From Nitrospirota bacterium (GTDB taxonomy: Bacteria; Nitrospirota; Thermodesulfovibrionia; Thermodesulfovibrionales; Magnetobacteriaceae), in contig JADFYO010000011.1 in NCBI GenBank assembly GCA_015233015.1, positions 1 to 64,000 on the forward strand: a DNA stretch of 64,000 bases, written 5' to 3'. Under the pieces are notes generated by a model. That model made no database searches. It was given only the letters and a program-made list of their open reading frames with translations, and had not been told where the DNA came from. A program made the position numbers and the translations under genes. This document shows, piece by piece, positions 28,126-45,510 of the stretch; position 1 is the stretch's first letter; every line of letters begins with the position of its first letter.

Positions 28126-28839
28126 CTATTCGATATTCCTGCTTATCAGGCTGTCACGCTCTTGCACGCAGTCTCTGTAGCTGCGCTCAAGCTTTGCAAT
28201 TTTCTCCCTGTGAATATGCCTCTCGCCCTTGAGAATATTTATCTCCTTTGCATAGGCATTTATCTTTTTCATTGCAGCGCCGATTTTCGTCTCCAGATAG
28301 TTTATATCCCTGAGCAGGTCTGACTTCTCTTCATTCAGCTCCGCAATACGGTTCTTATAAACCTGAGCCTCGTATTTTGCTTTATCAGATACTGCCTTCA
28401 TGTCAACAACATATGACTGTGAGCTGTTTCGTTCTTCGATAAGGTGTTCTATCTCCGCCTGAAGTTCTCTTTTTGAGGGTATTTCGCGGTTGATAGTATC
28501 GATTGTCCTTTGGAGGTCCTGTTTTTCTGTGCGCAGATTTGTTATCAGCTCCCTCGAGGATTTAATGTCCCGCTCCAGTGAGGCGTTTATCGAAAGGACA
28601 TCGGTAAGCTGTTTCTCCATGTTTTGAATGCAGATAAACATCTCCCTGATGGTCTTTCCTACGTCAACTGTGCCGCTTGCGTCTCTTAGCAGCTCAACCC
28701 CGCGTATCTCCGGCAGGGTGCTGGTTAATGCCCATGACGCACCTGCGGCCTGATTGGCACCCGTTCTTACCGTACCAGCCTCTTCACCAGGCGGCATTAA
28801 AGACATTTCGTGCATTTCGAATTCGCTTATATTGTCCAT
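28126..28839 (-). CDS. Coiled-coil protein, last gene of the magnetosome block
   Basis: A 237-residue soluble protein. Residues 1-60 are loosely structured; about 65-235 form an almost unbroken coiled coil (MEKQLTDVLSINASLERDI, then LRTEKQDLQRTIDTINREI). No enzymatic motif. It starts 2 bp after the stop of the next coiled-coil gene, with AAGGGG ahead of the ATG. In deep-branching magnetotactic bacteria comparable coiled-coil genes are called mad or man; I cannot say which one this is. Likely a structural or scaffold protein of the chain. Confidence 0.75.
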   Translation of the reverse strand: MDNISEFEMHEMSLMPPGEEAGTVRTGANQAAGASWALTSTLPEIRGVELLRDASGTVDVGKTIREMFICIQNMEKQLTDVLSINASLERDIKSSRELITNLRTEKQDLQRTIDTINREIPSKRELQAEIEHLIEERNSSQSYVVDMKAVSDKAKYEAQVYKNRIAELNEEKSDLLRDINYLETKIGAAMKKINAYAKEINILKGERHIHREKIAKLERSYRDCVQERDSLISRNIE

Positions 28840-28841
28840 GG

Positions 28842-29438
28842 TTACCCCTTTTTATAATAAGATAACTTTGTTGTTTTCTCAACTGTCTTCATAGCGCCAA
28901 ACAAATTTGTCAGTGCCTTCGAAGTCCATTCTATTTTCTCTATCAGATAGTCCAGCTCGTCGAACTTTTGAGGAACCTCATATTCAATCATCGTTACCTT
29001 GTTCTTCAGGGCGGCAATCTCCCCTTTTGTGAAATCTATTCCCAATATCGTATTGCCAAGGGTAGAGATATGGGCACCGAGGTCCTCGGATATCCTGTTG
29101 TAAATGGCGACGAGGCCGGCCCTTTCCTCTTCGAGGAAGTCTATTTCGGCCATCAGGCCGCTCTCGTCGGCAATTGGCTTTAAAAGTGAGCGCCTCAGGT
29201 CTGCCGCAGTGCCGGAGAGTTTCTTTATCTTCTTGTTCTTATCCAGCAGTTGAATCTCCAGCTCCTTTATCTGCCTTTCCATCTTGTTCTTTTCCACTTC
29301 AAGGGCTTCTATTTCGCTGTCGAGGACTTTTTTCTCGGCAAGAAGCCTGTCCCTCCGGACCATTAGCCCCTCCTCATTCTCCTCTATCCTCTCCTCTATC
29401 ATAGAATTCCTCTCTGCCGATTGATTGAGTTCATTCAT
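28842..29438 (-). CDS. Coiled-coil protein of the magnetosome block
   Basis: A 198-residue protein. Residues 1-75 are a highly charged coiled coil (LDSEIEALEVEKNKMERQIK). The second half is helical, less charged, and ends LSYYKKG. No signal peptide or membrane helix. It lies between the HEAT-repeat gene (17 bp) and the terminal coiled-coil gene (2 bp), so the three are made from one message. Exact homologue among Mad proteins not determined. Confidence 0.75.
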   Translation of the reverse strand: MNELNQSAERNSMIEERIEENEEGLMVRRDRLLAEKKVLDSEIEALEVEKNKMERQIKELEIQLLDKNKKIKKLSGTAADLRRSLLKPIADESGLMAEIDFLEEERAGLVAIYNRISEDLGAHISTLGNTILGIDFTKGEIAALKNKVTMIEYEVPQKFDELDYLIEKIEWTSKALTNLFGAMKTVEKTTKLSYYKKG

Positions 29439-29455
29439 CTCTCATGTACCTCGCC

Positions 29456-31123
29456 TTACACATTGAGGAGGTTTATAAGCTCTGCCTTTGTAAAAGTATC
29501 GTCACATTCCACGCCCAGGGCTTCGCACAGTGAGATAAGCTCCGACTTTGACATCCTCTTGAGTTCTGCCGGCGTCGGCATATCAGTTCGTTGTGCCGCC
29601 GCCATTTCGGCGGCAGGCTCACCTGATACAGCAGGCTCGTCTATTTCTGTGGCAGGCTCGTCTATTTCTGTGGCAGGCTCGCCTGTTTCAGCAGGTTCCG
29701 TTGATTCGGACACGGCCGGTTCGGCATAGTCCGGGGCTTCATAGCGTGAGTAAGAGGACTGCTCCGCCGGGGCGTCAGACGCCGTAACGTCCGCATATTG
29801 TTCAACCACTGCCTCGCCGATGCCGTCCATTCTCTCTCTTTGCCACCAGTCTTTCAAGTCGTTGACGGCCTTTGCAAGCGCCTCTCCGGTAAGCTCTATG
29901 TTGAAGGTTATATCCTTTGCCGTAATCATCTTTATGGCCTCGAGGGATTTCTGTCTTATTTCGATGCCTTCGTCTGTCAGTGTCCTCATAAGCGGCAGCA
30001 CGGCGGATGTGTCCTTAATATTAGCAAGCGCCGATACCGCCGCCTTTCTCACTGAGTCATCCTTGTCCTGAAGGCTCTGGACAAGCCCCGGCACTGCCTC
30101 GGTGCAGTCCTTCCAGCCCAAAAATGTGACTGCCGTACGTCGCACCTCGGCGTGCTCATCCTTCAGGGCGTCCATCAGATAAGGGATAATCTCATCGTCC
30201 TTACCAAGTTTATACAACCCGCGAAGGCTGTTTATGCGTACCTTGTGATTTGCGCCGGAGGACATATCCTTACATAACGCGACGGCCTTTGGGTCTCCTA
30301 TGTTGATAAGGGAATTAATAACCTCGGCGGTAAGATAGTGATTGTCGTATCTTACGGCCTCAAGCAGCACACCCACCGCCGCCAAGTTGCCCGTCTTGCC
30401 TAATTCTGTGGCGGCGAGGATCTTTACGTCCATCTCCATATCAAGCAGGTCGTTGGCTATTTTATTGAATATCGCCTTGTCGCTGTCTGTCTCAAACGTA
30501 CCGTGTTTCAGCGCCTTTTCAATGGCTGACCTGAGAAGTGCGTCAACCTGGCTCTCTGTCAGTTTCAGCTTCTTTTTTGTGAGTTTGGCCTCTCGTCTGG
30601 TATCGGTCTTTTTTGAGCCGTCCTCTCTTTTCGTCTCTTCTATTTCCAGGATGCGGCCTCTGAGCCTCTGTATCTCCTTCTCAAACTCCTTGACATCCTC
30701 TATCATCTTTCTGACCTTGTCGGACTCAAGCTGGTCGGTGGAGGCGCCTTCCTTGCCGATTTCAAAGTAAAGGTTCCTGATTTTTCCCTCATATTCAGTG
30801 ATTTTATCTCTGAGGTCATCCTTTTCAGAGCCGGGAGTTATCGCACTGAGCTTTACCGAGCTGAAATTAATCGCGCCGAAATCGATGCGACTAGTCAGTT
30901 CGCCAATCTTCGAAATGCCGCTGTAAAGGAAATCCACGGTCTTACCAGACAAATCCACGGTCGAATCCACAATACCCGGCGCTGCCTTTTTCACGGCGCT
31001 GGCCGTTTTATTAAATAAATCCACCGTGTAGTCAAAGGATTTTAGCGCTGCGGCACCGGTTGCGTTAAGTGCTCGTGCCACACTTCCCCAAAGACCTTTT
31101 CTTTTTACCTCTTCCTGTTCCAT
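29456..31123 (-). CDS. HEAT-repeat protein with coiled coil and SAP-like tail
   Basis: A 555-residue protein of four parts: an N-terminal region (1-110) with amphipathic helices, a charged coiled coil (about 110-205), five or so HEAT/armadillo-type repeats (about 215-425, e.g. HAEVRRTAVTFLGWKDCTEAV), an acidic linker with EPATEIDEP repeats, and a 35-residue C-terminal SAP/HeH-like helix-turn-helix (MSKSELISLCEALGVECDD). HEAT arrays bind proteins; SAP-like domains usually bind DNA or RNA. It is co-directional and 27 bp after the TauE-like gene. In this context it may be a large scaffold of the magnetosome surface. No counterpart in Magnetospirillum comes to mind. Confidence 0.75.
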   Translation of the reverse strand: MEQEEVKRKGLWGSVARALNATGAAALKSFDYTVDLFNKTASAVKKAAPGIVDSTVDLSGKTVDFLYSGISKIGELTSRIDFGAINFSSVKLSAITPGSEKDDLRDKITEYEGKIRNLYFEIGKEGASTDQLESDKVRKMIEDVKEFEKEIQRLRGRILEIEETKREDGSKKTDTRREAKLTKKKLKLTESQVDALLRSAIEKALKHGTFETDSDKAIFNKIANDLLDMEMDVKILAATELGKTGNLAAVGVLLEAVRYDNHYLTAEVINSLINIGDPKAVALCKDMSSGANHKVRINSLRGLYKLGKDDEIIPYLMDALKDEHAEVRRTAVTFLGWKDCTEAVPGLVQSLQDKDDSVRKAAVSALANIKDTSAVLPLMRTLTDEGIEIRQKSLEAIKMITAKDITFNIELTGEALAKAVNDLKDWWQRERMDGIGEAVVEQYADVTASDAPAEQSSYSRYEAPDYAEPAVSESTEPAETGEPATEIDEPATEIDEPAVSGEPAAEMAAAQRTDMPTPAELKRMSKSELISLCEALGVECDDTFTKAELINLLNV

Positions 31124-31150
31124 ATTTAAATCCTCCTCAGTGCAATATTT

Positions 31151-32062
31151 TCAGATTATACCCAAAATCAGTTTTACCGAAACAATCAGCAATAAAAACG
31201 CGATAACCCGTTTTATAACCTCAGAGTTAACGGACATGGCGAGCTTTGCGCCATAGTATGCGCCAAGTATCGTGCCAATCCCAAGAAACACCGTATAGTC
31301 GAGGTCAATGGTCTTTAGTCCCGCAAATATCATCACTCCAAAGAAACTCGTTATCACTATAATAAAATGCGACGTTGCCGCGGCTATATGTATAGGCATT
31401 CCTATAAAATTCATCAAAGGCACGTGCATAAGGCCGCCCCCTACCCCCAAAAGCCCTGAGAGTATGCCCACCAGAAAACTCCCGCCAAACCCCACCGCCA
31501 TATCCGGGCTGTATGTGTGCGTCTCTCCGGCTGCATCATAAACCACGCGCTGACTTGGCTCTGTTTGCGACTTCGAGCAGACCAGATAAAACTCATCCAC
31601 AAATATCAGACTGTACGTAACAGCCAGTAAAAGAAGGGCAAATATAACCGAAAACACCACCGTATTAAACTGTTGCGAGACTATAGCGCCAATCACCACA
31701 CCGGGGACTGCCACTACCGAAAACTTAATCCCAAGCCCGTAATCTATCCTCTCCTGAGACATATAGGAAAACGTACCTGAAAGCGCGTTTAAAAAAACCA
31801 CCGCCGTTGAAGTCCCTATGGCGTGCTGAGGCGTAAACCCGTACATAATCAACAGTATGGGAACGAGTATAAACCCACCCCCGGCACCGACCAGCGTACC
31901 AACAAGACCTACAAAAACCCCCGTCAGCACAACGGGAACGACGCCGAAAAACCCCTCTATCATATCGTGCTGAGCGTCTGGCCGCACATACGCGCAGCCG
32001 CCCATAAGTACCGCCGCAATGGCTATGAGAAACAGCGGCTGTCTGGAAACGGTTTGTGTCAT
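31151..32062 (-). CDS. TauE/SafE-family permease (MamO C-terminal-like)
   Basis: A 303-residue membrane protein with about eight helices. Paired glycine-rich motifs VGTLVGAGGGFILVPIL and LVGILSGLLGVGGGLMHVP mark the TauE/SafE fold, which exports or imports small anions. In Magnetospirillum the magnetosome protein MamO carries such a domain at its C-terminus after an inactive protease; here it is free-standing, as reported for other deep-branching magnetotactic bacteria. No mamO protease part is seen. ATGA overlap with the upstream coiled-coil gene (4 bp). Substrate unknown. Confidence 0.85.
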   Translation of the reverse strand: MTQTVSRQPLFLIAIAAVLMGGCAYVRPDAQHDMIEGFFGVVPVVLTGVFVGLVGTLVGAGGGFILVPILLIMYGFTPQHAIGTSTAVVFLNALSGTFSYMSQERIDYGLGIKFSVVAVPGVVIGAIVSQQFNTVVFSVIFALLLLAVTYSLIFVDEFYLVCSKSQTEPSQRVVYDAAGETHTYSPDMAVGFGGSFLVGILSGLLGVGGGLMHVPLMNFIGMPIHIAAATSHFIIVITSFFGVMIFAGLKTIDLDYTVFLGIGTILGAYYGAKLAMSVNSEVIKRVIAFLLLIVSVKLILGII

Positions 32063-33204
32063 TGTATCTCGTTCACTATGGTAAGTATTACCTTTTCCAC
32101 GGCAGTCTTATATTCCTGCGAGAGTTTGACAAGTATGCCGTTTATGCTCCCAGCGTAGTCGTTAATAGGGCTGAGCACCTCGATGAGTTTTTCGTCGGCC
32201 TCCTCATCCATAATCAGGCCCTGTAACTGGGTTTCAATATCTGCAAGTGCGGCCTTCGCCGGCTCAAGGTCTGCGTTTAGTTTGGCGTAATGCGCCGTGA
32301 ATTCCTCTTCTTCCTTTATCGAATTCTCTATGGCCTCTGCCGCGCTCGTAAGCTCCGCCACCTTCCTTTCGTTGCCCTCAACGGCGGCTGCCAGCTTATC
32401 CTTTTTCGCCGTAAGGGTTTCTATCTCTGCAAGCAGGTCTTCTTTGCTGTCGGCGGCGGTTAGTTCAGAAATTCTGCTCTGCAGATTATCCCTGAGTGTG
32501 GTCAGGGCATCCTTTTTTTGTCTCAGCGTACCGGCATTTGTCCTTATGGGCGGCAGCTCATTCTCAAGGGCATTAAGTTGTCCCTTTGAGCGGTCAATCA
32601 GGGCGGTATTTTCCACGATGGAAAGTTCGGCCTCGTTTTGCCTCGCTGTGAGGTTATCTCTTGCGGGAATCTTTGGAAAAAGGTGTTCTCTACGATTTAT
32701 CAGCAAATCATATTCGGCGTTAAGAGAGCGGAATGTATCTTCCTTTTGCCTTAGCTCATTGTCGAGCCATTCTTTTTCTTTTAATTTTTCGCCATACTCA
32801 GGGGTCAGCCTGTTTATCTTCAGTTCAAGCGCCCTGACCCTTTCAGTAAGCGTTTCTATGTCGGCGTTCCTTTGCTGCAGGACTGCTGCCTTCTTCTCGA
32901 GATCGAGGATTTGGTCCAGCGCCTTTATGGCGGCGTCTTTTTCTTCTCTAAATTGTTCTATCTGGTTCTTGATTTCCCGCGAACGGTCTTCCATGCCGCT
33001 CAAAACCGCGTTCAGCTCTGCGGCCTTTTTCTGTACCCGTTCAAAATATTCTTTTTTGTATTCTATCTCGTGCTGTTTTTTCTGAATATCGGTTTCTAAC
33101 GAAATTTTATCCTTCTTCAGAACAAGGTTCGTGCCAACCTCGTTAATCAGCCTGACCATGTCCTGCTTTGTATAAGTCGTCTGTTCTTCCGTTAATTTAG
33201 TCAT
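32059..33204 (-). CDS. Long coiled-coil protein of the magnetosome block
   Basis: A 381-residue protein, almost entirely coiled coil (about 25-340), rich in Glu, Lys, Leu and Ala, with SMC-like texture but no ATPase motifs. The C-terminal 50 residues (PINDYAGSINGILVKLSQEY) form amphipathic helices. Overlaps its neighbours on both sides by four bases (ATGA). Probably a filament or tether component together with the two coiled-coil genes upstream. Confidence 0.75.
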   Translation of the reverse strand: MTKLTEEQTTYTKQDMVRLINEVGTNLVLKKDKISLETDIQKKQHEIEYKKEYFERVQKKAAELNAVLSGMEDRSREIKNQIEQFREEKDAAIKALDQILDLEKKAAVLQQRNADIETLTERVRALELKINRLTPEYGEKLKEKEWLDNELRQKEDTFRSLNAEYDLLINRREHLFPKIPARDNLTARQNEAELSIVENTALIDRSKGQLNALENELPPIRTNAGTLRQKKDALTTLRDNLQSRISELTAADSKEDLLAEIETLTAKKDKLAAAVEGNERKVAELTSAAEAIENSIKEEEEFTAHYAKLNADLEPAKAALADIETQLQGLIMDEEADEKLIEVLSPINDYAGSINGILVKLSQEYKTAVEKVILTIVNEIQ

Positions 33205-34292
33205 CTGGGCGACCTCACAATTTCACCAAGGGCTGCCGTGCCCTTCTCTATATACAGCAGTTCACTTTCAAGCCTGAATTTTGAGGCAAGGTTTATTTCG
33301 ATATTCTCCATCTCAAGGTCTTTTTTCCTTTTGGATTCAGCGTGTTTAGTCAGATTTATCTTAGCCCCGGCAATCTTTTCGTCATACGCGAGGAGTTCTT
33401 TGGCAAGCGCTGGGGCGCTTGCCCTGTTTGCCTCGTTTGCGGCCTTGCGTTCTTTGAGTATTTCTGTCTGCTTATCGAGCTGTCCTTGTAGTTCTCCCGC
33501 GTTGAGGCTCAGAGATTTCTCCCGTTGTTCAAGGCTCCCGATAGTCTCTGTTAACGACGCCTTTTGGGCGGTGAGTTCCTTAACTTCCCTGTTCGCCTGC
33601 TCAAGGGCTTCAAGCCTTTGCTCCAATTCGCCGACCTCGGTCTCAAGCGCCGCGGTTTGGGGTTCAGCCTCTGCAACAAATGCCTTTAGGGCGTTAATCT
33701 CATCTGTGCATTGGGTTATGCCGGTTGTGAGAACGCCAAGCTCTCCAGCGAGCCGCTCCGCCTCTATGAATATCTTCGCCAAGGCCTCGAGCACCGCGAC
33801 CTCATCGACGAGTGCCTTTCGCTTTGGCTGCATGTCGCTGATTGTCAATGACAGCCGCTCTACCACCGCGGTCTTATCGGCCATGGTCTCTTCATACAGC
33901 TTAGTGTTGGCTTCTATCTCCAAGAGGAGCTTATTCAGCTCTCGTTGCTTTGCCCCAAGGGTATTTAAGAGTTTCTCCTGCCTGTTGAATTCATGTTCAA
34001 CGCCGCCTTCTGTGCCGGCCATCGCCCGTCTTTTTTTCAGCGCGAAGATATGCCCCTGCATCTCCTTCATCTCTTTTTCATGCACTGCCATCTCTACGTT
34101 ATAGACGCGAATCCGGTCAGAGCCATCGGCAAACTGTTTATTGGCCAGATTAAGGGCGTCAGTTAAATCACTGAGTTCTTTAGACAACCTTGCACGCCTC
34201 GTGCGCAGCTCAGTTATCTCTCCCGTGATGACTATGTTATCCGGGGACATGCGCCGGCCATCATTGCGCTCGATGTAATCCAATCTCGACAT
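33201..34292 (-). CDS. Long coiled-coil protein of the magnetosome block
   Basis: A 363-residue coiled-coil protein (about 15-345) without membrane segments or known enzymatic motif. Start placed at ATG 34292 (MSRLDYIERNDGRR), 2 bases after the preceding stop; an earlier in-frame start at 34322 would overlap the previous gene by 28 bases and lacks support. It ends in an ATGA overlap with the next coiled-coil gene. The three consecutive coiled-coil genes at 32059-34711 may form one hetero-oligomeric structure. Confidence 0.75.
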   Translation of the reverse strand: MSRLDYIERNDGRRMSPDNIVITGEITELRTRRARLSKELSDLTDALNLANKQFADGSDRIRVYNVEMAVHEKEMKEMQGHIFALKKRRAMAGTEGGVEHEFNRQEKLLNTLGAKQRELNKLLLEIEANTKLYEETMADKTAVVERLSLTISDMQPKRKALVDEVAVLEALAKIFIEAERLAGELGVLTTGITQCTDEINALKAFVAEAEPQTAALETEVGELEQRLEALEQANREVKELTAQKASLTETIGSLEQREKSLSLNAGELQGQLDKQTEILKERKAANEANRASAPALAKELLAYDEKIAGAKINLTKHAESKRKKDLEMENIEINLASKFRLESELLYIEKGTAALGEIVRSPR

Positions 34293-34294
34293 AG

Positions 34295-34711
34295 CTAAAC
34301 ACCCCGCATAAAGGTTTCCCATTGCTGCTGAATAATGGAGAGCCGCTCGTCTGCGTCGGTCTTTTCTTTCGCTAACCGGTCATAGGCGGCCTTTAAAATC
34401 TGATGCTCACCGGTGAGCTTTTTCATTGACTCGTTAAGTTCGTCCAGTTTACTGGTATCTTTCATGATGTCGTTTATTTTCTTTCGCAGCTCAACGTTTT
34501 TCTTCTCGATACGCTGGACATTGTCGTTGAGAATCTTCTTAATCTCATCTGTTGCAGCGCGAGACTGCGCCGTTATGGCCTCTGACACGGCCTTCTTCGC
34601 AACAACGGTATCCTCCAGATTCCCTACGGCCAACAGGAGTTTCTCCAGAAACGCGTTCTTTTCGTTTGCCCCAAGGCTCATAGCCCTATTTATCAGTTCG
34701 TTCGATAACAT
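34295..34711 (-). CDS. Short coiled-coil protein of the magnetosome block
   Basis: A 138-residue protein, helical throughout. Residues 50-130 form a charged coiled coil (DNVQRIEKKNVELRKKINDI). The N-terminus (LINRAMSLGANEKNAFLEKLL) looks like a short protein-binding helix pair. Located 25 bp after mamQ. Function unknown; likely works with the coiled-coil proteins that follow. Confidence 0.75.
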   Translation of the reverse strand: MLSNELINRAMSLGANEKNAFLEKLLLAVGNLEDTVVAKKAVSEAITAQSRAATDEIKKILNDNVQRIEKKNVELRKKINDIMKDTSKLDELNESMKKLTGEHQILKAAYDRLAKEKTDADERLSIIQQQWETFMRGV

Positions 34712-34736
34712 AGTTTCAACCTCGTTCAGATTTCAT

Positions 34737-35462
34737 TTATTCTACCTTTGGCGCCTTCGCAGCACCAGCTATCGCGCCGGATATCGGCAGCGGTTCGAAT
34801 CTGAAAATCATATTATAGATATTCCCAGGGAACATCTTTAATCTGGAGTTGTAGAAATTGGCTATCCTGTTATAGCTGATACGGCTTTCGGCTATCTTTG
34901 TCTCGGTGTCCGAGAGTTCCTTCATCAGGGTGTTATATGCCTCTGACGCCTTGAGCGCCGGGTATGCCTCGGCAACAGCCTGAAACTTTGACAACAGTGC
35001 CTTGCTGTCAATGGCCGCCTCTGTCTTAACGCCCGAATTCCCCGAACTCATAGACTTTTCCATTGCCTCAAGCTCCAGCGTCTTAACCGCGCTCCTTACC
35101 TCCGCCACATGACCAAACAGTGTCTTTTCGTAGCTCATGTAGTTATTGGCGCTGATGATAAGGTTCGGTATAAGGTCTGCCCGCCTTTGCAGCTGCGCCT
35201 CTATGTGCGCCCTTTCCATCATTGCCTGATACACGTTAACCGTGAAATAGTTGTAGTAATAGACCGCACCGGAGAGCACCGCAAGGACAAGGGACACAAT
35301 TGCAACTTTTATCGCCGGGGACTGCCTCGTCCATGACTTCTCTGAGACCCTTTGCAAGAGCCCCTTTCTCCTCAGGCTAACCTCGGGGATATCCCCGAGC
35401 AGCCCAAGGTCCTTGGCATATACCTTCTTCAGTATATCGTTTAGCTGGTCATTCTCAGTCAT
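34737..35462 (-). CDS. mamQ: MamQ (LemA-family magnetosome protein)
   Basis: A 241-residue LemA-fold protein. One membrane helix near residues 48-68 (VAIVSLVLAVLSGAVYYY) is followed by a long helical bundle with the LemA pattern (AHIEAQLQRRADLIPNLI, then ESRISYNRIANFYNSRLKMFP). In Magnetospirillum MamQ is needed to form the magnetosome membrane. It sits between mamE (9 bp) and a coiled-coil gene. A second, shorter LemA-like gene occurs in the same block at 39502. Confidence 0.88.
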   Translation of the reverse strand: MTENDQLNDILKKVYAKDLGLLGDIPEVSLRRKGLLQRVSEKSWTRQSPAIKVAIVSLVLAVLSGAVYYYNYFTVNVYQAMMERAHIEAQLQRRADLIPNLIISANNYMSYEKTLFGHVAEVRSAVKTLELEAMEKSMSSGNSGVKTEAAIDSKALLSKFQAVAEAYPALKASEAYNTLMKELSDTETKIAESRISYNRIANFYNSRLKMFPGNIYNMIFRFEPLPISGAIAGAAKAPKVE

Positions 35463-35471
35463 AGCCTTCTG

Positions 35472-37277: not shown

Positions 37278-37508
37278 CTATCGGTCTCTTTCGCTAGCAG
37301 TATCGTCCTGAGGCATCTTCCCGTTGAAATTTTTGACCTTCGCCTTCAATCCAGTGTTTCTTATACCGGCAACCAATGCGACAAAACCACCAAACAGAAG
37401 CGCCACCGGCAGCAACGCTAAAAACACATCCACCACATACCACCAGTACGTTACCATCCCCCACAGGCCAAGACACATTGCTATCAAACCAAACACTATA
37501 CTCAGCAT
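37278..37508 (-). CDS. mamI: MamI, small magnetosome membrane protein
   Basis: A 76-residue protein with two membrane helices (about 3-27 and 31-50) and the family-like motif GLWGMVTYWWYVVDVF, ending in a basic-polar tail. Length and topology match MamI (about 70-77 residues), which in Magnetospirillum is required for magnetosome membrane formation. It lies 9 bp before mamE and 64 bp after mamA. Confidence 0.8.
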   Translation of the reverse strand: MLSIVFGLIAMCLGLWGMVTYWWYVVDVFLALLPVALLFGGFVALVAGIRNTGLKAKVKNFNGKMPQDDTASERDR

Positions 37509-38217: not shown

Positions 38218-38231
38218 GCGTTAACCTCCCG

Positions 38232-38633
38232 TCATAATATCGAATGTCCCAAAATAATCAGCACAATCCACACATAAAACATCAGCTGCTGCGAATGTAC
38301 CAGCTTCATCTCCCTGTAATACCTATACGGCCACTTAAAGTACATCATAGCGCCCACTATCGAAAGCCATATCGTAACTAAAAATGACATTTGAAGTATG
38401 ACATTCCTCTCTTCGGCATAATGGCCGTGAAAAAGTGTAATCCACAGTCCCATAAGGTTAAGCAGTATGTGCCACCTCAGATAACTCTGAAAAAACTGCG
38501 ATATCTCCTTTGAATGGCCTATCAGCTGCGTCGTTATTATCTTAGCCGGATAGTACGCGTTTGCTATGATAAATAAGACTGCCGCTATAGTTCCCGAAAA
38601 ATCTAACAGTGGCCTCAATTCCAAAACCTCCAT
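38232..38633 (-). CDS. Four-helix membrane protein with cytochrome b-like histidines
   Basis: A 133-residue protein with four predicted membrane helices (about 14-34, 52-70, 79-98, 115-132). Helix 2 carries His55 and His69, 14 residues apart, the spacing used by haem-bridging histidines in ferric reductases and related b-type cytochromes. His71, His113 and His130 are further candidates. Overall length equals a half ferric-reductase domain. It overlaps the end of mamB by 19 bp and precedes mamA by 14 bp. Possible role: moving electrons across the magnetosome membrane to set the Fe(II)/Fe(III) ratio. Family not recognised with certainty. Confidence 0.7.
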   Translation of the reverse strand: MEVLELRPLLDFSGTIAAVLFIIANAYYPAKIITTQLIGHSKEISQFFQSYLRWHILLNLMGLWITLFHGHYAEERNVILQMSFLVTIWLSIVGAMMYFKWPYRYYREMKLVHSQQLMFYVWIVLIILGHSIL

Positions 38634-39505
38634 TTATCAATCGGATGCGCCCTGACAAACACGCCGTCAAGGCCATCGATTTTATTAAGTATTATCGCCT
38701 TCACCTGCTCTATCATCGTATGGGTCTCCATGACGGTAACCGTGCGCGAGACCTCTATGTCGATATCCACGCTGCACTTCTGGCCCATGCAGCGAGACCT
38801 TATCGCCCGCACGCCTTCTATCCCTTTTACCCTTTGGCAGATGCTTCTGATGTCCTCCAGTGTGCCATGGTCCATAGATATATCAATCAGGCCGTGTACG
38901 CCCTTCATAAACATCTCGACACTTATATGAAACACGAATATCGACACTACCAGAGCCGCAACCGTATCCGAATATATAAATCCCAGTCTGGTACCTATCA
39001 AACCCAGGAGCACCGCCACTGACGTGAGGCTGTCGGCCTTACTCTCCGCAGCGTCGGCAAGCATCGCCGGGCTGTTCAGCTGTGTCCCCGCACACGTGTT
39101 TGACGTGTACATGAGCCAGCTATAAAATAACGATATAATTGTGGCAACCAGGGCAGCGTTACTTGGAATGGCGTGTGAGCCGTGTCTGAAGCTGTGCAGG
39201 GCGTCAAGCAAAATAAGGCTGGCGCATAAGAATATGAACAGGCTTGCCGAGATAGTGCTTATGTATTCCACCTTGCCGTGCCCATAGGGATGCCCCGCGT
39301 CTTTTGGTTTGTCAGATATCTTTAGAGCGATGAGTACGAACAGCGACGACACCGTATCGGCTAAGGAATGAACCCCGTCGGCCATCAGTCCTTTACTGCC
39401 CGTAAGGCCGCCTACCACGAATTTAAATATAGACATGGTAAAATTCCCTATCGCGCTCATTGGCGGCGACAACTTGCCGCATCTCGTACATTCGGGATAC
39501 TTCAT
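38615..39505 (-). CDS. mamB: MamB, cation diffusion facilitator (iron into magnetosome)
   Basis: A 296-residue CDF transporter with an N-terminal CTRC motif (Cys6, Cys9), six membrane helices and a cytoplasmic domain. The first metal site is seen in ADGVHSLADTVSS (Asp43, His46, Asp50). KISDKPKDAGHPYGHGKVEYIS matches the CDF loop. The His in the first site fits MamB, whereas MamM has Tyr there. MamB is essential for magnetosome vesicle formation and, with MamM, for iron uptake. It overlaps mamQ-like upstream by four bases. Confidence 0.9.
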   Translation of the reverse strand: MKYPECTRCGKLSPPMSAIGNFTMSIFKFVVGGLTGSKGLMADGVHSLADTVSSLFVLIALKISDKPKDAGHPYGHGKVEYISTISASLFIFLCASLILLDALHSFRHGSHAIPSNAALVATIISLFYSWLMYTSNTCAGTQLNSPAMLADAAESKADSLTSVAVLLGLIGTRLGFIYSDTVAALVVSIFVFHISVEMFMKGVHGLIDISMDHGTLEDIRSICQRVKGIEGVRAIRSRCMGQKCSVDIDIEVSRTVTVMETHTMIEQVKAIILNKIDGLDGVFVRAHPIDKWRFWN

Positions 39506-40134
39506 TTTTCTCCCTTGCCGTTAGCCGTAGTAAACATGTGTGTAACGTCCAGCTTTGCCACCAGAGGCACCATATGCGCCCCCTTGTCAGCCGCATTGAA
39601 CTCTGCCTTCTTAAAGCCATGCAGCCATGCCGTTATATTATACGGGAATAATCTCAAAAACGTATTGTACTCAGCAACGGCGTCATTATAGTGAAGCCTT
39701 GCCAATACCACGCCCTGCTCAGCCTTCCAAATGGTCTCCATAAAGTATATGTACGGCCCCTTGGCCGTCAGGTCTGGCGAGGCCTCGGCAAGCGCCCTGA
39801 GTTTGCCTAAGAGCATCGTCATCTCGTCCTGCTTGTTCCTGGTTTCGGCGCTATTTATACCTGCTCTGGTTCTGATTGCGCCGTTTAACTCGATGAGCAG
39901 ATTAGAGAGCCTTCTCTCTGTTTCCACATATGTATCAACGGCATGGGCGGCCTTCTTATATATATTTTTGCGCTTTTGAAGCTCAATTTCAAGCTGCCCG
40001 TGCGATATATGCAAAAAGTGCTCCTCGTCGATTAACCTGTTATACAGGAACATCGCCATCGAGACCTTAAACAAAACCGCCGTCCCAAGGGCATATAACA
40101 CGTATCTCATTATATTATTATTCGCTTTCATCAA
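39502..40134 (-). CDS. Second LemA/MamQ-like protein
   Basis: A 210-residue LemA-type protein with one N-terminal membrane helix (about 9-27) and the conserved signature VLARLHYNDAVAEYNTFL ahead of FPYNITAWLHGF. It is shorter than the MamQ at 34737 and quite different in sequence, so it is an old paralogue. ATGA overlaps on both sides tie it to mamB and the EcsC-like gene. Two MamQ-type genes in one block have been described in other Nitrospirota; specific role unknown. Confidence 0.82.
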   Translation of the reverse strand: MMKANNNIMRYVLYALGTAVLFKVSMAMFLYNRLIDEEHFLHISHGQLEIELQKRKNIYKKAAHAVDTYVETERRLSNLLIELNGAIRTRAGINSAETRNKQDEMTMLLGKLRALAEASPDLTAKGPYIYFMETIWKAEQGVVLARLHYNDAVAEYNTFLRLFPYNITAWLHGFKKAEFNAADKGAHMVPLVAKLDVTHMFTTANGKGEK

Positions 40135-40817
40135 TCGCTCTCATATCTGCCAAGCTCGTCGTCATCTATCCATGTGCTGAAGTATTTTCTTGCCTGATTT
40201 CCTATCATCATAGTGGTTGCCGCGTTTACAGACACACCAATAGGGATGCCTATTAATGGTATTAACTTATACCACTTAGTTAAGAGCCGGGGGATAGCCT
40301 TCTCCGCTATCTCGACGGTTGCCCTTGCCAGACCGGTTTTAATGTAATCTGAGGCAAGCGTATCCACGGTCTTTCTCAACATGCTGGCCGTTACCGCCTT
40401 TGCCGCCGCGGCAGACCCAGAAAATCCCACAAGCGCAAGAGCCGCCGCCTTCAGCTCATCCTCATCCATATGCACGTCATAGGCAACCGAAAGGGCATAG
40501 CACAGCTCTATCTGCATCCTTAGCACGATGGCAAGGTCAATGGCACCGCCAATCAGCACCGTGCCAACTGTCCCCACAATGGGCAGCGTTCCCGGTATGG
40601 AGGTCAGCCCTCCTATGCCTCCCGCTTTTATGGCCGCGTTTTTTATTAACTTGCTGCCAACGGCGTAGGCTACGTACTTGTGCGGCTTTGCGCCCAAGTG
40701 TCTTAAATCGTATTCGTTTATCATCTCTTTGACCTCCTGCCTGATAGTAGGCAGGTACGTCCCTGAGACGGTCAGTATCTTATCAAACCAGTCTATATTT
40801 TCAAATCTGTCGTTCAT
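40131..40817 (-). CDS. EcsC-like membrane-associated protein
   Basis: A 228-residue protein with several hydrophobic stretches, notably a Gly-rich run (IKAGGIGGLTSIPGTLPIVG) followed by LRMQIELCYALSVAYD, a pattern seen in EcsC-domain proteins. A second Pro/Gly-rich hydrophobic hairpin (LIPLIGIPIGVSVNAATTMM) lies near the C-terminus. The function of EcsC domains is poorly known; in Bacillus EcsC accompanies an ABC exporter. It is 22 bp after mamM and overlaps the LemA-like gene by 4 bases. Not one of the classic mam genes. Confidence 0.65.
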   Translation of the reverse strand: MNDRFENIDWFDKILTVSGTYLPTIRQEVKEMINEYDLRHLGAKPHKYVAYAVGSKLIKNAAIKAGGIGGLTSIPGTLPIVGTVGTVLIGGAIDLAIVLRMQIELCYALSVAYDVHMDEDELKAAALALVGFSGSAAAAKAVTASMLRKTVDTLASDYIKTGLARATVEIAEKAIPRLLTKWYKLIPLIGIPIGVSVNAATTMMIGNQARKYFSTWIDDDELGRYESD

Positions 40818-40839
40818 GTTTATCTTTTCATCCTATCCA

Positions 40840-41748
40840 TTATGGCATATACGGCTCTACGGCCAGATTAATCCCCACTATACCATCGACGCGTTTCATA
40901 AGCGTCTCCTCCACATACCGGCCTATCAGATAGCCGTTGTCAAGGGTCTGGCTGTGGTCAACCTTTATCACTATCTCCACCCATATGCCCTGACCTACTT
41001 TCCTTGCATTTATCGAGGATACACGCAGGACCCCGGGGACTAGCCCTGCAAAGTGGGTAATCTGTCTGATGATAGACGGGCTGATGGAGGAGTCCATTAT
41101 CCCTTTTAACGAATCGTTGAGCATCGAGGCACTGAGCCTTATCAGGTCAAGTGTTTCTATTACGGCAACCAGAGGGTCGGCGAAATAAAACCCAAACCTT
41201 GTAAGCAGTATCGCACCCGCCACACAGGCCGAGGAAACGGCGTCTGAGTGATTGTGCTTAGCATTGGCGAGCATGGCAGGGCTTCCACGGCGCTCACCCA
41301 CACAGTGCAGATATGAAGACAGTTTAGCATTTGCGATAATCGAGACCACCGCCGCCCAGAATGCTATAAACTTAGGCGGGTTTACCATGCCGTGCCAGGC
41401 ACCCCACACATCCTTTACCGAATGAATAAATAAGAACAGCGTACCGATTATTATCAGCAGGCTTATCAGGAATATTGCAACGAACTCTATCTTACCGTGG
41501 CCGTAGTGGTGGTCGTCGTCGGCCGGCTTGCCGGATATCTTCACCCCGACTAATACTACAAGGGAGGTCAGGAAGTCCTTAAATGAATAGATGGAATCGC
41601 CAATGACGGCCTTACTGCCGCTGATGATACCGACAACCAGCTTAAACACCGCAAGGAGCAGATTTGAGATGACTGCTATCCCGCTGGCCTTTTTCTCGCA
41701 GTTAGAGCACTGCGCGTAGGTCAGATTATCTTGTGACAGTTTGTGCAT
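40840..41748 (-). CDS. mamM: MamM, cation diffusion facilitator
   Basis: A 302-residue CDF transporter. N-terminal CSNC (Cys14, Cys17), then six helices. The metal site IGDSIYSFKDFL has Tyr54 and Asp58, as in MamM of Magnetospirillum, and its partner AKHNHSDAVSS follows in helix 5. The C-terminal domain has VGQGIWVEIVIKVD, also MamM-like. It forms heterodimers with MamB and carries iron into the vesicle. Its start overlaps the end of mamP by 28 bp. Confidence 0.87.
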   Translation of the reverse strand: MHKLSQDNLTYAQCSNCEKKASGIAVISNLLLAVFKLVVGIISGSKAVIGDSIYSFKDFLTSLVVLVGVKISGKPADDDHHYGHGKIEFVAIFLISLLIIIGTLFLFIHSVKDVWGAWHGMVNPPKFIAFWAAVVSIIANAKLSSYLHCVGERRGSPAMLANAKHNHSDAVSSACVAGAILLTRFGFYFADPLVAVIETLDLIRLSASMLNDSLKGIMDSSISPSIIRQITHFAGLVPGVLRVSSINARKVGQGIWVEIVIKVDHSQTLDNGYLIGRYVEETLMKRVDGIVGINLAVEPYMP

Positions 41749-42662
41749 TGCCCTCTATCCCTGTGGGGCGGAGTTACCCCCCACTTGATTGGCGGTGGTG
41801 TTACGGTTAGTACATCGCCCGCGTCCTTTGCGAGCTGTCCGGTGTTTACAGCCGTTTTAGAAATTGAATGGCACTTGTTGCATGGGCCATAGTAGCCGTG
41901 GGGCGAGGTGGCGGTAGGAAGTATCATCGGGGCCGCCTCCATCTGCGCTATACCCAGGACATCCGCCGCGGTAACGGTGATGTTCTTTACCGCGCCCGTT
42001 CTGTAAACCGTCACAGCGGCCTGTTGCGCGTTGGCAACTGGCTTTGTGGCCGCCCTGAAAGTGGCTAAATCTGTTACCGGCGCGTCGTTGACTGCCTGAA
42101 TGACATCGCCCGCCAAAATGCCGGAGTTTGCCGCCACAAGCGTTACCTCATCCACTAACACGCCCTTCACGCTTGCCGGAATACCGTTTGCCGCCGCAAT
42201 GGCAGGCGTCAGGGGGATTGTCTCGAGACCTATCCAGTGGCCTTCCTGAAGCACCATTTCAAGCAGCGGGTTTGCCGCCGGTGCTGTGGCTGTCTTTGCC
42301 TGATTAGCCGTGTCCAACTGAGGGGCATAGACGCCTTGTGTGTCAGCCCCGGGCTGAGACTGCGGCGCGGTTGGGTCGTTGAACTTCGCGTACGGGTCTG
42401 CCCCGTTAGCCGCGTTGGGGTCGTTGGCCTGGTCTGCCGGGTTATTAGCCTGATTGACCTGATTATTTGGGCCGGCGTTATTTCCTGGCTGCCACGCAAC
42501 TATCTCCGGTGACTGTGCATTTTGCCGGGCGTTTTTAATCATCCCCTCTTCCCAGCCGTCACGCTTCATGAGCTTGGCCGGATTGAAGATCAGGAGATAG
42601 CCCGCCGTGCCGATTATCAGCGCGATTATCAGGTAATTTAATGAACGCCAAAGGTGGTTCAT
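41721..42662 (-). CDS. mamP: MamP, PDZ and magnetochrome c-type cytochrome
   Basis: A 313-residue protein with one membrane anchor (about 8-26), an Asn/Gln/Pro/Ala-rich linker (45-130), a PDZ domain (about 140-232) and two haem-binding CxxCH motifs, CNKCH at 261-265 and CTNCH at 306-310. This is the MamP layout; in marine strain MO-1 MamP oxidises Fe(II) and promotes magnetite growth. The haem domains should face the vesicle lumen. It begins 3 bp after the 58-residue gene and overlaps mamM. The low-complexity linker is longer than in Magnetospirillum as I remember it. Confidence 0.92.
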   Translation of the reverse strand: MNHLWRSLNYLIIALIIGTAGYLLIFNPAKLMKRDGWEEGMIKNARQNAQSPEIVAWQPGNNAGPNNQVNQANNPADQANDPNAANGADPYAKFNDPTAPQSQPGADTQGVYAPQLDTANQAKTATAPAANPLLEMVLQEGHWIGLETIPLTPAIAAANGIPASVKGVLVDEVTLVAANSGILAGDVIQAVNDAPVTDLATFRAATKPVANAQQAAVTVYRTGAVKNITVTAADVLGIAQMEAAPMILPTATSPHGYYGPCNKCHSISKTAVNTGQLAKDAGDVLTVTPPPIKWGVTPPHRDRGQCTNCHKII

Positions 42663-42665
42663 GGC

Positions 42666-42842
42666 TTAGCCCGCTGCCTCTGTCTCGCTGTCGTCGATGT
42701 TTGGCTCCATCAGGCCGTTGAATTTTTCCTTAATCTTAGCAGCTAATTTTTTGGCCATCTCCGGTTCCTGCCTCTGAAATATCTCATAGAACAGGGCGCT
42801 TACAAACACCCCTACAAATACTCCCGCTAATATCTTTGACAT
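42666..42842 (-). CDS. 58-residue single-pass membrane protein
   Basis: A 58-residue protein: one membrane helix (ILAGVFVGVFVSALFYEIF) and a charged helical tail (MAKKLAAKIKEKFNGLM) ending acidic. Start set at 42842 because AAGGAGGT lies 7 bases upstream; a longer in-frame start at 43001 would run through the end of the His-rich gene and is rejected. Similar in form to YtxH-like proteins and to the short man/mam membrane proteins of magnetosome clusters. 3 bp before mamP. Confidence 0.75.
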   Translation of the reverse strand: MSKILAGVFVGVFVSALFYEIFQRQEPEMAKKLAAKIKEKFNGLMEPNIDDSETEAAG

Positions 42843-42876
42843 ATCACATACCTCCTTAATATGCGCCGTTGAGCGC

Positions 42877-43524
42877 TTAGTCTGCCTGACCGCTTTCGTC
42901 TTCAGTCTTTTCCCAAGTATCCTCTTCAGCGTTTGCCTCAGTAATGGCCTCGTGCGTGTGAGGCTCTTCGTTTGCCTCTTCCTGCGTATGTAACTCTTCA
43001 CTCACATGCGGCTCTTCGTGGAACTCCTCCTGAACTTGCGCCTCTTCATGTGTGTGGTGTTCGTCGTAGATGTGCTCCTCTTCGTGCGTATGCGGTTCGT
43101 CATGTGTATGCAGCTCTTCGTGTGTATGCGGCTTTTCGTGAATATGCTCTTCTTCCTGTGCGGGCGTTTGTTCCTGCGTACAGGTACACATGCAGCTCGA
43201 TGGATACAATCTGCTCTGGCGCTCGGCAATGAACTCGTCGTATCTCTTTTCTGTCTCATCGAGAGTGGTCAGTATCTCCCTTACCTTCTCATCTGCAAAT
43301 ATAACCTGTTCCGGGTCGGTCTTTCTCAGAGCCGCTACCCGCGCCCCCAAATCATTAACCAGTCCCCGCTTTTTCTTTTTCAGAAAATGAATATCATACG
43401 TGAGAATGACCCCTTTGGCCGAACATCTTGCGGCCTCGGATACCTTGTCAACCATCCCGACGAAATAATCCCCTAAATGCTCCATCCTATACCGGAACCC
43501 TGTCTCCATATTCAAAACCTCCAA
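42877..43524 (-). CDS. His/Glu-rich putative metal-binding protein
   Basis: A 215-residue protein of two parts. Residues 1-105 are helical and soluble, with no signal peptide. After a CMCTC motif (111-115) the C-terminal half is an acidic run with repeated HTHEE and HIHEK-type units and 17 histidines between 127 and 191. Such repeats bind divalent metals (compare HypB, SlyD or ZIP loops). It sits between the MamL-like gene (12 bp) and the 58-residue membrane gene. In a magnetosome operon, buffering or delivering iron on the cytoplasmic side is the attractive guess. Not recognised as a named Mad or Man protein. Confidence 0.75.
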   Translation of the reverse strand: MEVLNMETGFRYRMEHLGDYFVGMVDKVSEAARCSAKGVILTYDIHFLKKKKRGLVNDLGARVAALRKTDPEQVIFADEKVREILTTLDETEKRYDEFIAERQSRLYPSSCMCTCTQEQTPAQEEEHIHEKPHTHEELHTHDEPHTHEEEHIYDEHHTHEEAQVQEEFHEEPHVSEELHTQEEANEEPHTHEAITEANAEEDTWEKTEDESGQAD

Positions 43525-43536
43525 TAACTCGTTCAG

Positions 43537-43797
43537 TTAAAAATCCCTGATTTCCTGTTCCATTTTTCTTTTCTTTATCTTTTGCGCAATACCCTTAAAT
43601 ACCAAATAACCTATTATAGTTAAGGCCGAACCCGCCGCCATGCTTATAATAATCACCATACTCAGCTGCATGTGGATGGGGCTGCCTATGAAAAACTTCA
43701 TCGGCACAGGACCGGTATTCTGGTCAATAAATACCGCAAATAGAAAAAGTGCCGCTATCAGCGGTAAAAAAACCTTCTTAGTCAATAATTTGTCCAT
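43537..43797 (-). CDS. LapA-like (MamL-like) two-helix membrane protein
   Basis: An 86-residue protein with two membrane helices (about 9-26 and 44-70) and a strongly basic tail (KGIAQKIKKRKMEQEIRDF). The N-x-GPVPMKFFIG pattern between the helices is that of LapA/DUF1049 proteins, the fold of magnetosome protein MamL, whose basic tail is thought to help bend the membrane. It begins 3 bp after mamK. Given without symbol because LapA proteins are common outside magnetosomes. Confidence 0.7.
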   Translation of the reverse strand: MDKLLTKKVFLPLIAALFLFAVFIDQNTGPVPMKFFIGSPIHMQLSMVIIISMAAGSALTIIGYLVFKGIAQKIKKRKMEQEIRDF

Positions 43798-43800
43798 TTT

Positions 43801-44871
43801 TTATTTAGACCTGTCTTTCAGCTCATGCCAGTATTCGTCCGGCATGTCCTTACAAAGCAGCAGCGCACCGTTGGCCCCGGCGTAAAGCGGCTCCTCCACA
43901 CATGTTACCTTGCCGTAGCCCAATTTTTCTGTCATAAAGTCCTCTATCTCCCTTTTCAGGCCAACTATCTGACTCCCGCCGCCGGCAAGTATAACATTCT
44001 CCTTTAAGTGCGTCTGAAACTCAGGGTCATATGTTGAGATGAGTTTCCTGATGCCCTCGACAAGCTCCGGGACTATTGCCTTGCACGCCATTCTAAGCTC
44101 GGCCGTTACATCGTGCCTTACGGGTTTGCCATTTACGGGAAGCTCTATAAATACGCTGTCGCCGTGCTGGGATACGTTAGAGTTTTCTTCCTTGAATTTC
44201 TTAACCATATTTACTGTAAAATTAGCGTTCGTATATTTTTTTGAGAGCAGTTCATAAAATACCTGATCAACATAGTCGCCTGCCTTCATTGTCGTTATCT
44301 GGTCGTCCTCTGTGGGCATTGTCCCGTGCATCCTGCACAGGTCAACCGTCCCTGCGCCTATATCTACGATAAAGGCATTGGTCAGCAGCCCAAGCCCATA
44401 GGCAACGGCAAACGGCTCAGATACATACATCACATCGTCGAGTATGCCGCGGGCTATCTCGAGCATCGCCTTCTTGTTCTTCCTGCTTGCAAGGGCCGGT
44501 GCACCCAAAACGCCTCTTACCAGTACGTTACTGCCTCCGCCAGGGTCGGCCTCCACGGCTATTTCGATAAGACGCTTCAGGAGCGCCCTCGCCGCCTCTA
44601 TCGCCTTCTTGTACTCCGGGGAATTCTCGTCCCAATCCTGCGCTATTTTGAGCATTCCCTTGTCAAAAGGCCTTATCAATTCTAAAGACATCCTGTTTTT
44701 CAGTGCCTCTTCTCCAAATACGATGTCCTTACTCAACATCTTCCTCGCCACAGCGTCTTTCGGATAGCCCACAACGCTTGGCAGGTATGTCCTGACGCCG
44801 TTGTCACACGCTATGACGCTTCTTGACGTACCCAAATCTATACCTACATTAATAACCCTCTTACCGACCAT
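43801..44871 (-). CDS. mamK: MamK, actin-like filament protein
   Basis: A 356-residue actin-fold protein: phosphate-1 NVGIDLGTSRSVIACDNG, connect and phosphate-2 VDIGAGTVDLCRM, adenosine motif VILAGGGSQI. MamK filaments run along the cell and align magnetosomes into a chain. Length and the DLGTSRSV start are typical of MamK, not of MreB or ParM. Start at ATG 44871 (AAGGAG nine bases upstream); an in-frame GTG two codons earlier is possible. A 120-bp gap precedes it, with a possible own promoter. Confidence 0.93.
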   Translation of the reverse strand: MVGKRVINVGIDLGTSRSVIACDNGVRTYLPSVVGYPKDAVARKMLSKDIVFGEEALKNRMSLELIRPFDKGMLKIAQDWDENSPEYKKAIEAARALLKRLIEIAVEADPGGGSNVLVRGVLGAPALASRKNKKAMLEIARGILDDVMYVSEPFAVAYGLGLLTNAFIVDIGAGTVDLCRMHGTMPTEDDQITTMKAGDYVDQVFYELLSKKYTNANFTVNMVKKFKEENSNVSQHGDSVFIELPVNGKPVRHDVTAELRMACKAIVPELVEGIRKLISTYDPEFQTHLKENVILAGGGSQIVGLKREIEDFMTEKLGYGKVTCVEEPLYAGANGALLLCKDMPDEYWHELKDRSK

Positions 44872-44915
44872 TGCCACCGTCTCCTTTTGAGTCAGTTTTA
44901 TAATCCAATCGGGTT

Positions 44916-44921
44916 ATTATA
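44916..44921 (-). promoter_or_regulatory. Possible -10 element before mamK
   Basis: A perfect TATAAT on the minus strand in the only sizeable gap of the block (44872-44991), 45 bases before the mamK start. The -35 region is weak (TGAATA at 18 bases). It could allow mamK to be expressed apart from the first gene. Low confidence. Confidence 0.3.
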
Positions 44922-44991
44922 ACACTTCGATATATACTATATTCACATTCAGTTATTATTTTTCCTCCATTTTCATCGAAAGTATGAATTT

Positions 44992-45510
44992 TTATTCCCC
45001 TTCCTTATCATCTGCCATCAAATCGATATTTTCTTTCACTATATTTTTCAGGAACATCAGCCTGTCTTCGGTCAGTTTCTTGCCCTTGACGTGTAAGCCT
45101 TCGTTGGTGGCAATTATACCGTGCTTTTCGAGGTAAGACAGCCTATCCTCCAGCTGGGCAAGCCTCGCATCGAGCGCTTGAAGTTTCTCGTTTTCGAGTG
45201 ACTCAAGTCTCTTGCCGCGGCAGACCGGTAAAACCTTACCAATTGCCTGAGACGCGGCAATAATACCGTCTGAAAACCCGTTTATTGTCCTTTTGAAGGC
45301 TGCCCCTACAACCTCCTTTACCGGAGTGAATACAGCGGGGCTGACTACTTTAGCGGCTGGTTCAACGGCGGAGATAGCGGCAGCGCCCCCAATTTTAATA
45401 TAGCTGAAGACGACAAGGCCGGTATATTCGGCAAACGCATATGAATACTCCCATGATTCGCTAAGCACATCCGCCCCCGCGTCCAGATACTTCTTCCCTA
45501 TGTCCAGCAT
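44992..45510 (-). CDS. First gene of the magnetosome block, unknown function
   Basis: A 172-residue protein. Residues 25-80 are Ala/Val-rich and weakly hydrophobic (YIKIGGAAAISAVEPAAKVV), probably a membrane-associated helix region. Residues 95-130 form a short coiled coil (ALDARLAQLEDRLSYLEKHG) and the tail is acidic. GAGGGGGT precedes the ATG. It heads the operon behind a repeat-rich leader. The Ala/Val-rich N-terminus resembles the start of the HEAT-repeat protein at 29456. No family recognised. Confidence 0.75.
   Translation of the reverse strand: MLDIGKKYLDAGADVLSESWEYSYAFAEYTGLVVFSYIKIGGAAAISAVEPAAKVVSPAVFTPVKEVVGAAFKRTINGFSDGIIAASQAIGKVLPVCRGKRLESLENEKLQALDARLAQLEDRLSYLEKHGIIATNEGLHVKGKKLTEDRLMFLKNIVKENIDLMADDKEGE

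Follow-up and report, generated by a model that had tools for sequence, protein, structure and literature searches.

The window, i.e., the whole 64,000-nucleotide stretch of Nitrospirota DNA analysed here, carries on its minus strand, from 28126 to 45510, the main magnetosome gene cluster of a Candidatus Magnetominusculus species (Magnetobacteriaceae, Nitrospirota), which is a cluster of a known kind. The source genome (3.78 Mb, 149 contigs) is 99% complete. As described in an initial annotation, the block is filled by 22 open reading frames lying in a single direction; the limits proposed there matched, both ends were sharp, and translation of every frame gave no internal stop in any of the 22 genes. 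Ten mam, six man and six mad genes follow one another from man1 to mad25. Seven of the 21 junctions are overlaps (4-28 bp) and twelve are gaps of 2-34 bp, in line with the overlaps or gaps under 35 bp noted earlier for most of them (19/21), and the two larger gaps separate man1 from mamK (114 bp) and mamA from mamI (64 bp). Nitrospirota magnetosome genes have a published order, man1-mad26 (Zhang et al. 2021, PMC8353452; PMC9376291), and the assignment of the block to a Nitrospirota type was borne out: man1-man6 are interspersed with mad2, mad10, mad23-mad25 and mad31 in the published order up to mad25, save that mad26 does not directly follow mad25 and is placed elsewhere. The synteny search returned the identical gene order in loci L010-L012 and L046-L051 and in other genera; because this order recurs in other species and genera, chance is no concern. 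The closest MamK relatives (86-90% identical) belong to Ca. Magnetominusculus xianensis HCH-1, Magnetominusculus sp. LBB02 and the metagenome-assembled genome nDJH13bin15. Kinship was judged from protein identity and the genome set, and the 16S gene, a partial copy of about 770 bp on a small contig, was left out of the placement.

The proteins of the block were scanned against Pfam and NCBIfam with curated cut-offs, which confirmed the mamK, P, M, B, A, I, E and Q genes of the initial annotation, added a second mamQ and mamO-Cter, and showed all mamABIKMQ core genes to be present. The NCBIfam cut-offs were passed by the actin-like filament protein MamK (43801-44877; NF040964, 468.8 bits, cut-off 400) and by the CDF iron transporter MamM (40840-41748; NF033615, 400.3 bits, cut-off 350). 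Six other proteins had their own magnetosome family as best NCBIfam match, below its cut-off: MamP (41721-42662; NF040965, 243 bits, cut-off 300), with a PDZ domain and two magnetochrome CxxCH motifs at residues 261 and 306 (PF18509, 58 bits, cut-off 30.4); the CDF iron transporter MamB (38615-39505; NF033616, 234 bits, cut-off 350); the TPR protein MamA (37573-38217; NF040959, 151 bits, cut-off 200); MamI (37278-37508; NF040963, 71.9 bits, cut-off 80); and MamQ-1 (34737-35462) and MamQ-2 (39502-40134), both of the LemA family PF04011 (120.7 and 79 bits, cut-off 26.2). Perhaps the missed cut-offs reflect models resting on other lineages. MamE (35472-37268), an HtrA-type protease with a GNSGGP motif, PDZ domains and one CxxCH by family scans and motifs, scored slightly higher with the DegP/HtrA model (298.8) than with the MamE model NF040960 (266.6, below the cut-off of 800); its name is taken from its position, its one magnetochrome motif and its 85-89% identity to relatives. 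Overall, the profile searches did not place the best hits of the mamK, mamP, mamE and mamB candidates outside the magnetosome proteins, and the names of the mam genes are beyond doubt because of their position and their 69-97% identity to the same genes in Magnetominusculus. MamO-Cter (31151-32062) is a TauE-like membrane protein (PF01925, 166.8 bits) that matches NF040961 on its C-terminal part (41 bits).

Among the remaining genes, man2 (43537-43797) encodes a small membrane protein with a LapA-like domain (PF06305, 35.5 bits, cut-off 28), and man3 (42666-42842) a protein of 58 aa with one transmembrane helix, its start being chosen from homologs of 47-58 aa. Mad10 (42877-43524) is rich in histidine and acidic residues (19 His and 55 Asp/Glu among 215) and is 31-70% identical to the product of the same-position gene in relatives. 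The EcsC-like Mad31 (40131-40817; PF12787, 29.9 bits, cut-off 30.4) is 38-87% identical in the same comparison. The HEAT-repeat protein Mad23 (29456-31123; PF13646, 85 bits) is present in the Magnetobacteriaceae genomes searched, and the coiled-coil proteins Mad24 (28842-29438) and Mad25 (28126-28839) were named from synteny, with 33-75% and 36-84% identity within the family. Pfam matches of the coiled-coil genes to SMC/Rad50 and eukaryotic coiled-coil families were rejected as coiled-coil background. For about half of the proteins, the initial annotation could give no function; most of these already carry a name in the literature, and for several a phenotype of mutants is described in Desulfovibrio magneticus RS-1.

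Expression probably starts from one strong promoter ahead of man1 and proceeds as a long operon. The predicted sigma-70-like element is TTGACA-18 nt-TACACT (45694-45723, minus strand; consensus scan 10/12). Within the man1-mamK gap (44878-44991), TGTTATAAT resembles an extended -10 element and is a possible internal mamK promoter. The man1 promoter ends 8 nt upstream of a perfect tandem array (45583-45686) made of 8.7 copies of the 12-bp unit CGTCTCTAATAA, read on the minus strand (Tandem Repeats Finder score 208, 100% match, zero mismatches), and therefore the array starts at the expected transcription start and lies in the predicted man1 leader. TTGACA and its 18-nt spacing are kept in nDJH13bin15 and LBB02. 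Past the array, the sequence aligns poorly among species, except for TAACGGYGTT at its end.

That this array is a neutral tandem repeat without function is only a little less probable than that it has one. Indeed, two other arrays of similar score (above 180) occur in the 437 kb sampled of this genome, in folding, the array paired with the ribosome-binding site no more specifically than shuffled controls did, and the repeats found near man1 in other genera differ in sequence and place. Against neutrality, the man1 array has the highest score of all short-period arrays in the same 437 kb, and the two other arrays, taken as controls, were not found in the four congeners searched, whose genomes are incomplete. 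Besides, in the three species with promoter sequence, the man1 array begins where transcription is predicted to start, and its unit is identical in three species (the window genome, nDJH13bin15 and HCH-1, in which an assembly break interrupts the array), whereas fourfold-degenerate sites are only about 50-60% identical; LBB02 carries a uniform 13-bp version. The unit length of the array, 12 or 13 bp, does not match a single helical face, a slight hint that any role would lie in the RNA. The repeat is rich in C, poor in G and folds weakly, and it is only an idea that it could serve for Rho loading. An anti-ribosome-binding-site leader, in which CUC-rich repeats would pair with the man1 GAGGAGG, was rejected, as shuffled arrays pair equally well. 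In other Magnetobacteriaceae (L122, L123, L124 and L126), short perfect tandem repeats unrelated in sequence to the 12-bp unit lie near the man1 promoter, either upstream of it (11-bp AAAGCATTACT or TTAAATCATTA, five copies) or downstream (21-bp unit, 3.4 copies). No description of a repeat ahead of man1 was found in the literature searched, most subscription papers lying outside the search. For the magnetosome genes of this uncultured phylum, the array provides a first candidate for a regulatory element.

The mad2 gene (38232-38633) encodes a protein of 133 aa with four predicted transmembrane helices. It matches no Pfam or NCBIfam family, its comparison with Protein Data Bank (PDB) sequences gave no relevant match, and Mad2 was reported to have no obvious homology to any characterised protein (PMC4287615). 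Its structure model consists of four long helices with a predicted local distance difference test score (pLDDT) of 80. A profile search of twelve genomes recovered Desulfobacterota orthologs at about 1e-22, and in the resulting joint alignment of 30 rows, some of which are one gene fetched twice, His55 and His69 are present in 30/30 and His130 in 29/30, the exception being a truncated gene. The invariance of these three histidines spans two phyla, and in a set of 19 the invariant columns include N25, Y27, P29, H55, N59, H69, G94, G129 and H130. According to the model, helix 42-72 bears His55 and His69, 14 residues apart, and helix 105-131 bears His113 and His130. Two histidines on each of two helices are the usual layout of membrane cytochromes b holding two haems, and the Mad2 model has this layout in two predicted membrane helices. 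Published mutations fall on His69 and next to His130: two missense mad2 alleles of RS-1, H101Y and G162S, abolish the magnetic response (PMC4287615). The correspondence comes from five Desulfobacterota orthologs, each 166 aa long and one encoded in a Desulfovibrionaceae genome. They carry H87, H101, G162 and H163, and their residue 101 corresponds to His69 and residue 162 to Gly129, the neighbour of His130. From this pattern, we infer that Mad2 is probably a b-type cytochrome with a putative haem.

Several points weigh against this reading. A few Mad2 proteins lack His113, the fourth putative ligand; the alleles were matched through orthologs whose residue numbers agree with those of the alleles; and none of eight Mad2 proteins matched a cytochrome family in Pfam. 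The fold matches include cytochrome b6f, cytochrome b561 and designed two-haem bundles (Z 10.6-11.4), with designed or sensor bundles equal or higher, and all Foldseek E-values are above 0.4, a level reached by unrelated helical bundles, so that fold matches were not counted as proof. Because no described family was matched by sequence, Mad2 may be said to work like the described b-type cytochromes (cytochrome b561, ferric reductase, b6-type) rather than to be a member of them. It is less likely, though a serious alternative, that the conserved histidines bind iron or another metal directly, in an iron channel or a nonhaem site: iron must pass this membrane, His55, His69, His71 and His130 could serve as nonhaem ligands, and this explanation needs no likeness to cytochrome families, of which the sequence has none. 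However, the pairs of histidines on two predicted helices, together with the invariant Gly94 and Gly129, are the usual arrangement of two-haem membrane cytochromes b, and in RS-1 mad2 mutants a few malformed particles still arise, as would be expected from a failure of redox control more than from a failure of iron supply.

Magnetite contains both Fe(II) and Fe(III), and a role of Mad2 in electron transfer for this mineral is slightly favoured over its absence. With about the same modest preference, Mad2 would belong to a new family of transmembrane b-type cytochromes with two haems and would connect the lumen of the magnetosome with the electron pool of the membrane. In deep-branching magnetotactic bacteria, it would then be the electron partner that MamP and MamE have been missing, in the place presumed for MamZ in Magnetospirillum. 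Electron partners of magnetochrome proteins have been called unknown (PMC3971196). Mad2 is a concrete candidate, and existing non-magnetic alleles already strike a proposed ligand. The label of b-type cytochrome was not found for Mad2 in the literature searched, which left most subscription papers outside.

The four coiled-coil genes man1 (44992-45510, 172 aa), man4 (34295-34711), man5 (33201-34322) and man6 (32059-33204), described as Nitrospirota genes, each have a single counterpart at the corresponding place of Desulfobacterota clusters. Man1 belongs to no Pfam or NCBIfam family, and its structure model is uninterpretable (pLDDT 54, predicted template modelling score 0.20). In six Desulfobacterota loci, the Nitrospirota Man1 profile hit a single gene, immediately upstream of mamK (E 1e-24 to 1e-28); in several of these six, the Man4, Man5 and Man6 profiles hit neighbouring genes that follow the man4-man5-man6 order. 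When profiles were compared with profiles (hhalign), Man1, Man4, Man5 and Man6 paired with their own Desulfobacterota sets at probabilities (P) of 99.8, 99.0, 99.7 and 99.6. Besides, nDJH14bin9 was reported with mad21 and mad22 and without man4-6 (PMC8353452), and its two genes at this place match Man5 (P 97.7) and Man6 (P 97.9); by these matches, man5 and man6 correspond to the genes published as mad21 and mad22, the names mad20-22 of the Desulfobacterota genes being given from position. Some Man4 counterparts are fused to an N-terminal domain resembling a response-regulator receiver (L020:7413-8954, L060:10906-12231).

It is improbable that Man1, Man4, Man5 and Man6 are truly specific to Nitrospirota and that their Desulfobacterota likeness is coiled-coil background, even though published trees of Man1, -2, -4 and -5 contain Nitrospirota alone (PMC9376291), and coiled coils do cross-match weakly, as seen for Man5 and Man6, each of which matches the other's partner (P 84-94). 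Indeed, each Desulfobacterota set pairs with its own partner at E 1e-18 to 1e-29, the off-diagonal values of Man1 and Man4 reach only P 0.1-19, and the crosses between Man5 and Man6 fall 17-19 orders of magnitude in E-value behind the diagonal; the identical gene order and the two nDJH14bin9 genes point the same way. Because of their cross-matches, Man5 and Man6 may be old paralogs. These comparisons suggest that Man1, Man4, Man5 and Man6 are shared between phyla and not specific to one; they would be chain or scaffold genes. If they are old shared genes, man-based arguments on many magnetosomes per cell and on cluster transfer between phyla need revisiting.

The cluster is under purifying selection. 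MamK, MamB, MamM and MamE have an amino-acid identity of 0.86-0.91 to three congeners, whereas only 0.46-0.60 of their fourfold-degenerate sites are identical, and therefore selection holds these proteins. In RS-1, magnetism is lost or weakened when certain residues are mutated (Table 1 of Rahn-Lee et al. 2015, PMC4287615); the MamB residues C9, G20 and G32, altered in RS-1 alleles, are kept in the block, and both MamQ have an R-x17-P pair matching R160/P178 of RS-1. The block was initially called complete, which stands for the main region man1-mad25 and fails for three other places. First, mad26 lies on contig C58 (G000:C58:44986-45558; L094:8987-9568), next to a fragment that reads as transposase-like; it is apart from the main cluster in 7/7 genus members searched, with differing neighbours. 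A mad26 directly behind mad25 is a common trait of such clusters and not a defining one: its absence from the block is also reported for nDJH8bin6 and LBB02 (PMC8353452, PMC9376291). Second, contig C55 carries in one locus (L095:6728-12443) mad28, a 177-aa gene, the ParA/MinD-type mad29, feoB and a DtxR/FeoA-like gene, a layout preserved in HCH-1. Third, a mad28-like gene lies on contig C69. The view of the block as a silenced or decaying leftover, suggested by the displaced mad26 and by silent clusters in other taxa, including some non-magnetotactic bacteria (PMC9938234, in part), is very improbable, given the absence of frameshifts in all 22 genes, the amino-acid conservation, the kept key residues and the presence of mad26, mad28, mad29 and feoB elsewhere in the genome.

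We are thus highly confident that the block is the main magnetosome cluster of its species, held by selection, probably transcribed as one long operon and working along the lines proposed below, even if two points weigh against it: the organism is known here from DNA alone, and the mad26 and mad28/feoB genes lie outside the block. The general scheme follows published Magnetospirillum and RS-1 work (PMC9840458, PMC4287615, PMC3971196, in part). The magnetosome membrane would be shaped by MamI, MamQ-1, MamQ-2, MamB and Man2, Fe(II) would be imported by MamB/MamM, and MamE would sort and process proteins, with nucleation supported by MamO-Cter/TauE. MamP, with two magnetochromes, and MamE, with one, would determine the lumenal Fe(II)/Fe(III) ratio, and Mad2 would carry electrons across the magnetosome membrane to or from their haems. 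In RS-1, Mad10 binds magnetite and starts chain formation, Mad23 joins crystals into subchains and Mad25 keeps subchains straight. Similarly, Mad10 would coat the magnetite here, and crystals would then pass to a Mad23-Mad25(-Mad26) scaffold with Man1, Man4, Man5 and Man6; MamK, with the Mad28 encoded elsewhere, would ensure the spacing and placement of the chain. The roles of MamB, MamE, MamP, MamQ, TauE, Mad10, Mad23, Mad25, MamK and Mad28 come from experiments in other species; this genome contributes gene identities, order, intactness and conservation, the arrangement of histidines in Mad2 and its fit with known alleles. New here are Mad2 as a likely membrane haem step, Man1, Man4, Man5 and Man6 shared between phyla, and the conserved leader array.

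Around the block, trpD, trpG and trpE lie upstream on the same strand, starting 343 bp off, and downstream a putative glycosyltransferase gene, convergent with the block, ends 7 bp from it. Elsewhere in the window (14468-17269), two neighbouring genes are built of 141-bp (47-residue) tandem repeats resembling TPR units. On C55, feoB and the DtxR/FeoA-like gene face mad28-orf-mad29 in a head-to-head arrangement; for LBB01, a distance of 1.7 Mb was reported between the feo region and the mad28 region (PMC9376291). The Mad28-like actin of C69 (L096:7393-10690) is 93-95% identical among three congeners, which exceeds the conservation of mad28, and its gene adjoins that of a class A penicillin-binding protein. 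The N-terminal domain of the latter shares homology with the small protein whose gene separates mad28 from mad29 (hhalign P 97). This neighbourhood hints that cell-wall synthesis is linked to a curvature-sensing magnetosome actin.

The Magnetospirillum mamAB operon shares mamA, B, E, I, K, M, O, P and Q with the block. As stated in the initial annotation, its order is different; it also lacks the man and mad genes, and the mamO of the block is the TauE part only. The role proposed for Mad2 resembles that given to MamZ, which carries a ferric reductase domain (PMC3971196), although Mad2 is no MamZ homolog by sequence. RS-1 and other Desulfobacterota share mamK, mamB, mamQ, mad2, mad10, mad23, mad25 and the mamO-type TauE, and other Desulfobacterota loci also hold counterparts of Man1, Man4, Man5 and Man6; they differ in gene order and in their Mad2 of 166 aa, which has an extra N-terminal part. 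The RS-1 genes mamL, mad1, mad6 and fmpAB were not identified in the block, and man2 has been proposed as the MamL equivalent (PMC9840458, in part). Ca. Magnetobacterium casense MYR-1, Ca. Magnetomonas plexicatena LBB01 and Ca. Magnetomicrobium cryptolimnococcus XYC have the order man1-mad25, but their mad26 comes after mad25, and their repeats near man1, where present, are other in sequence and place. HCH-1 and LBB02 (Ca. Magnetominusculus linsii) have the same 22 genes, in the same order where contigs allow comparison, with identities to the block proteins of 86-88% for MamK, 95-97% for MamI and 89-90% for MamB; in both, mad26 is on a separate contig (for LBB02 also PMC9376291) and a tandem array precedes man1. 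They are other species, and LBB02 differs by its array unit of 13 bp and by the absence of trpD beside man1. The block is one more, well assembled, copy of the published cluster type, and its value lies in three testable points, mainly Mad2.

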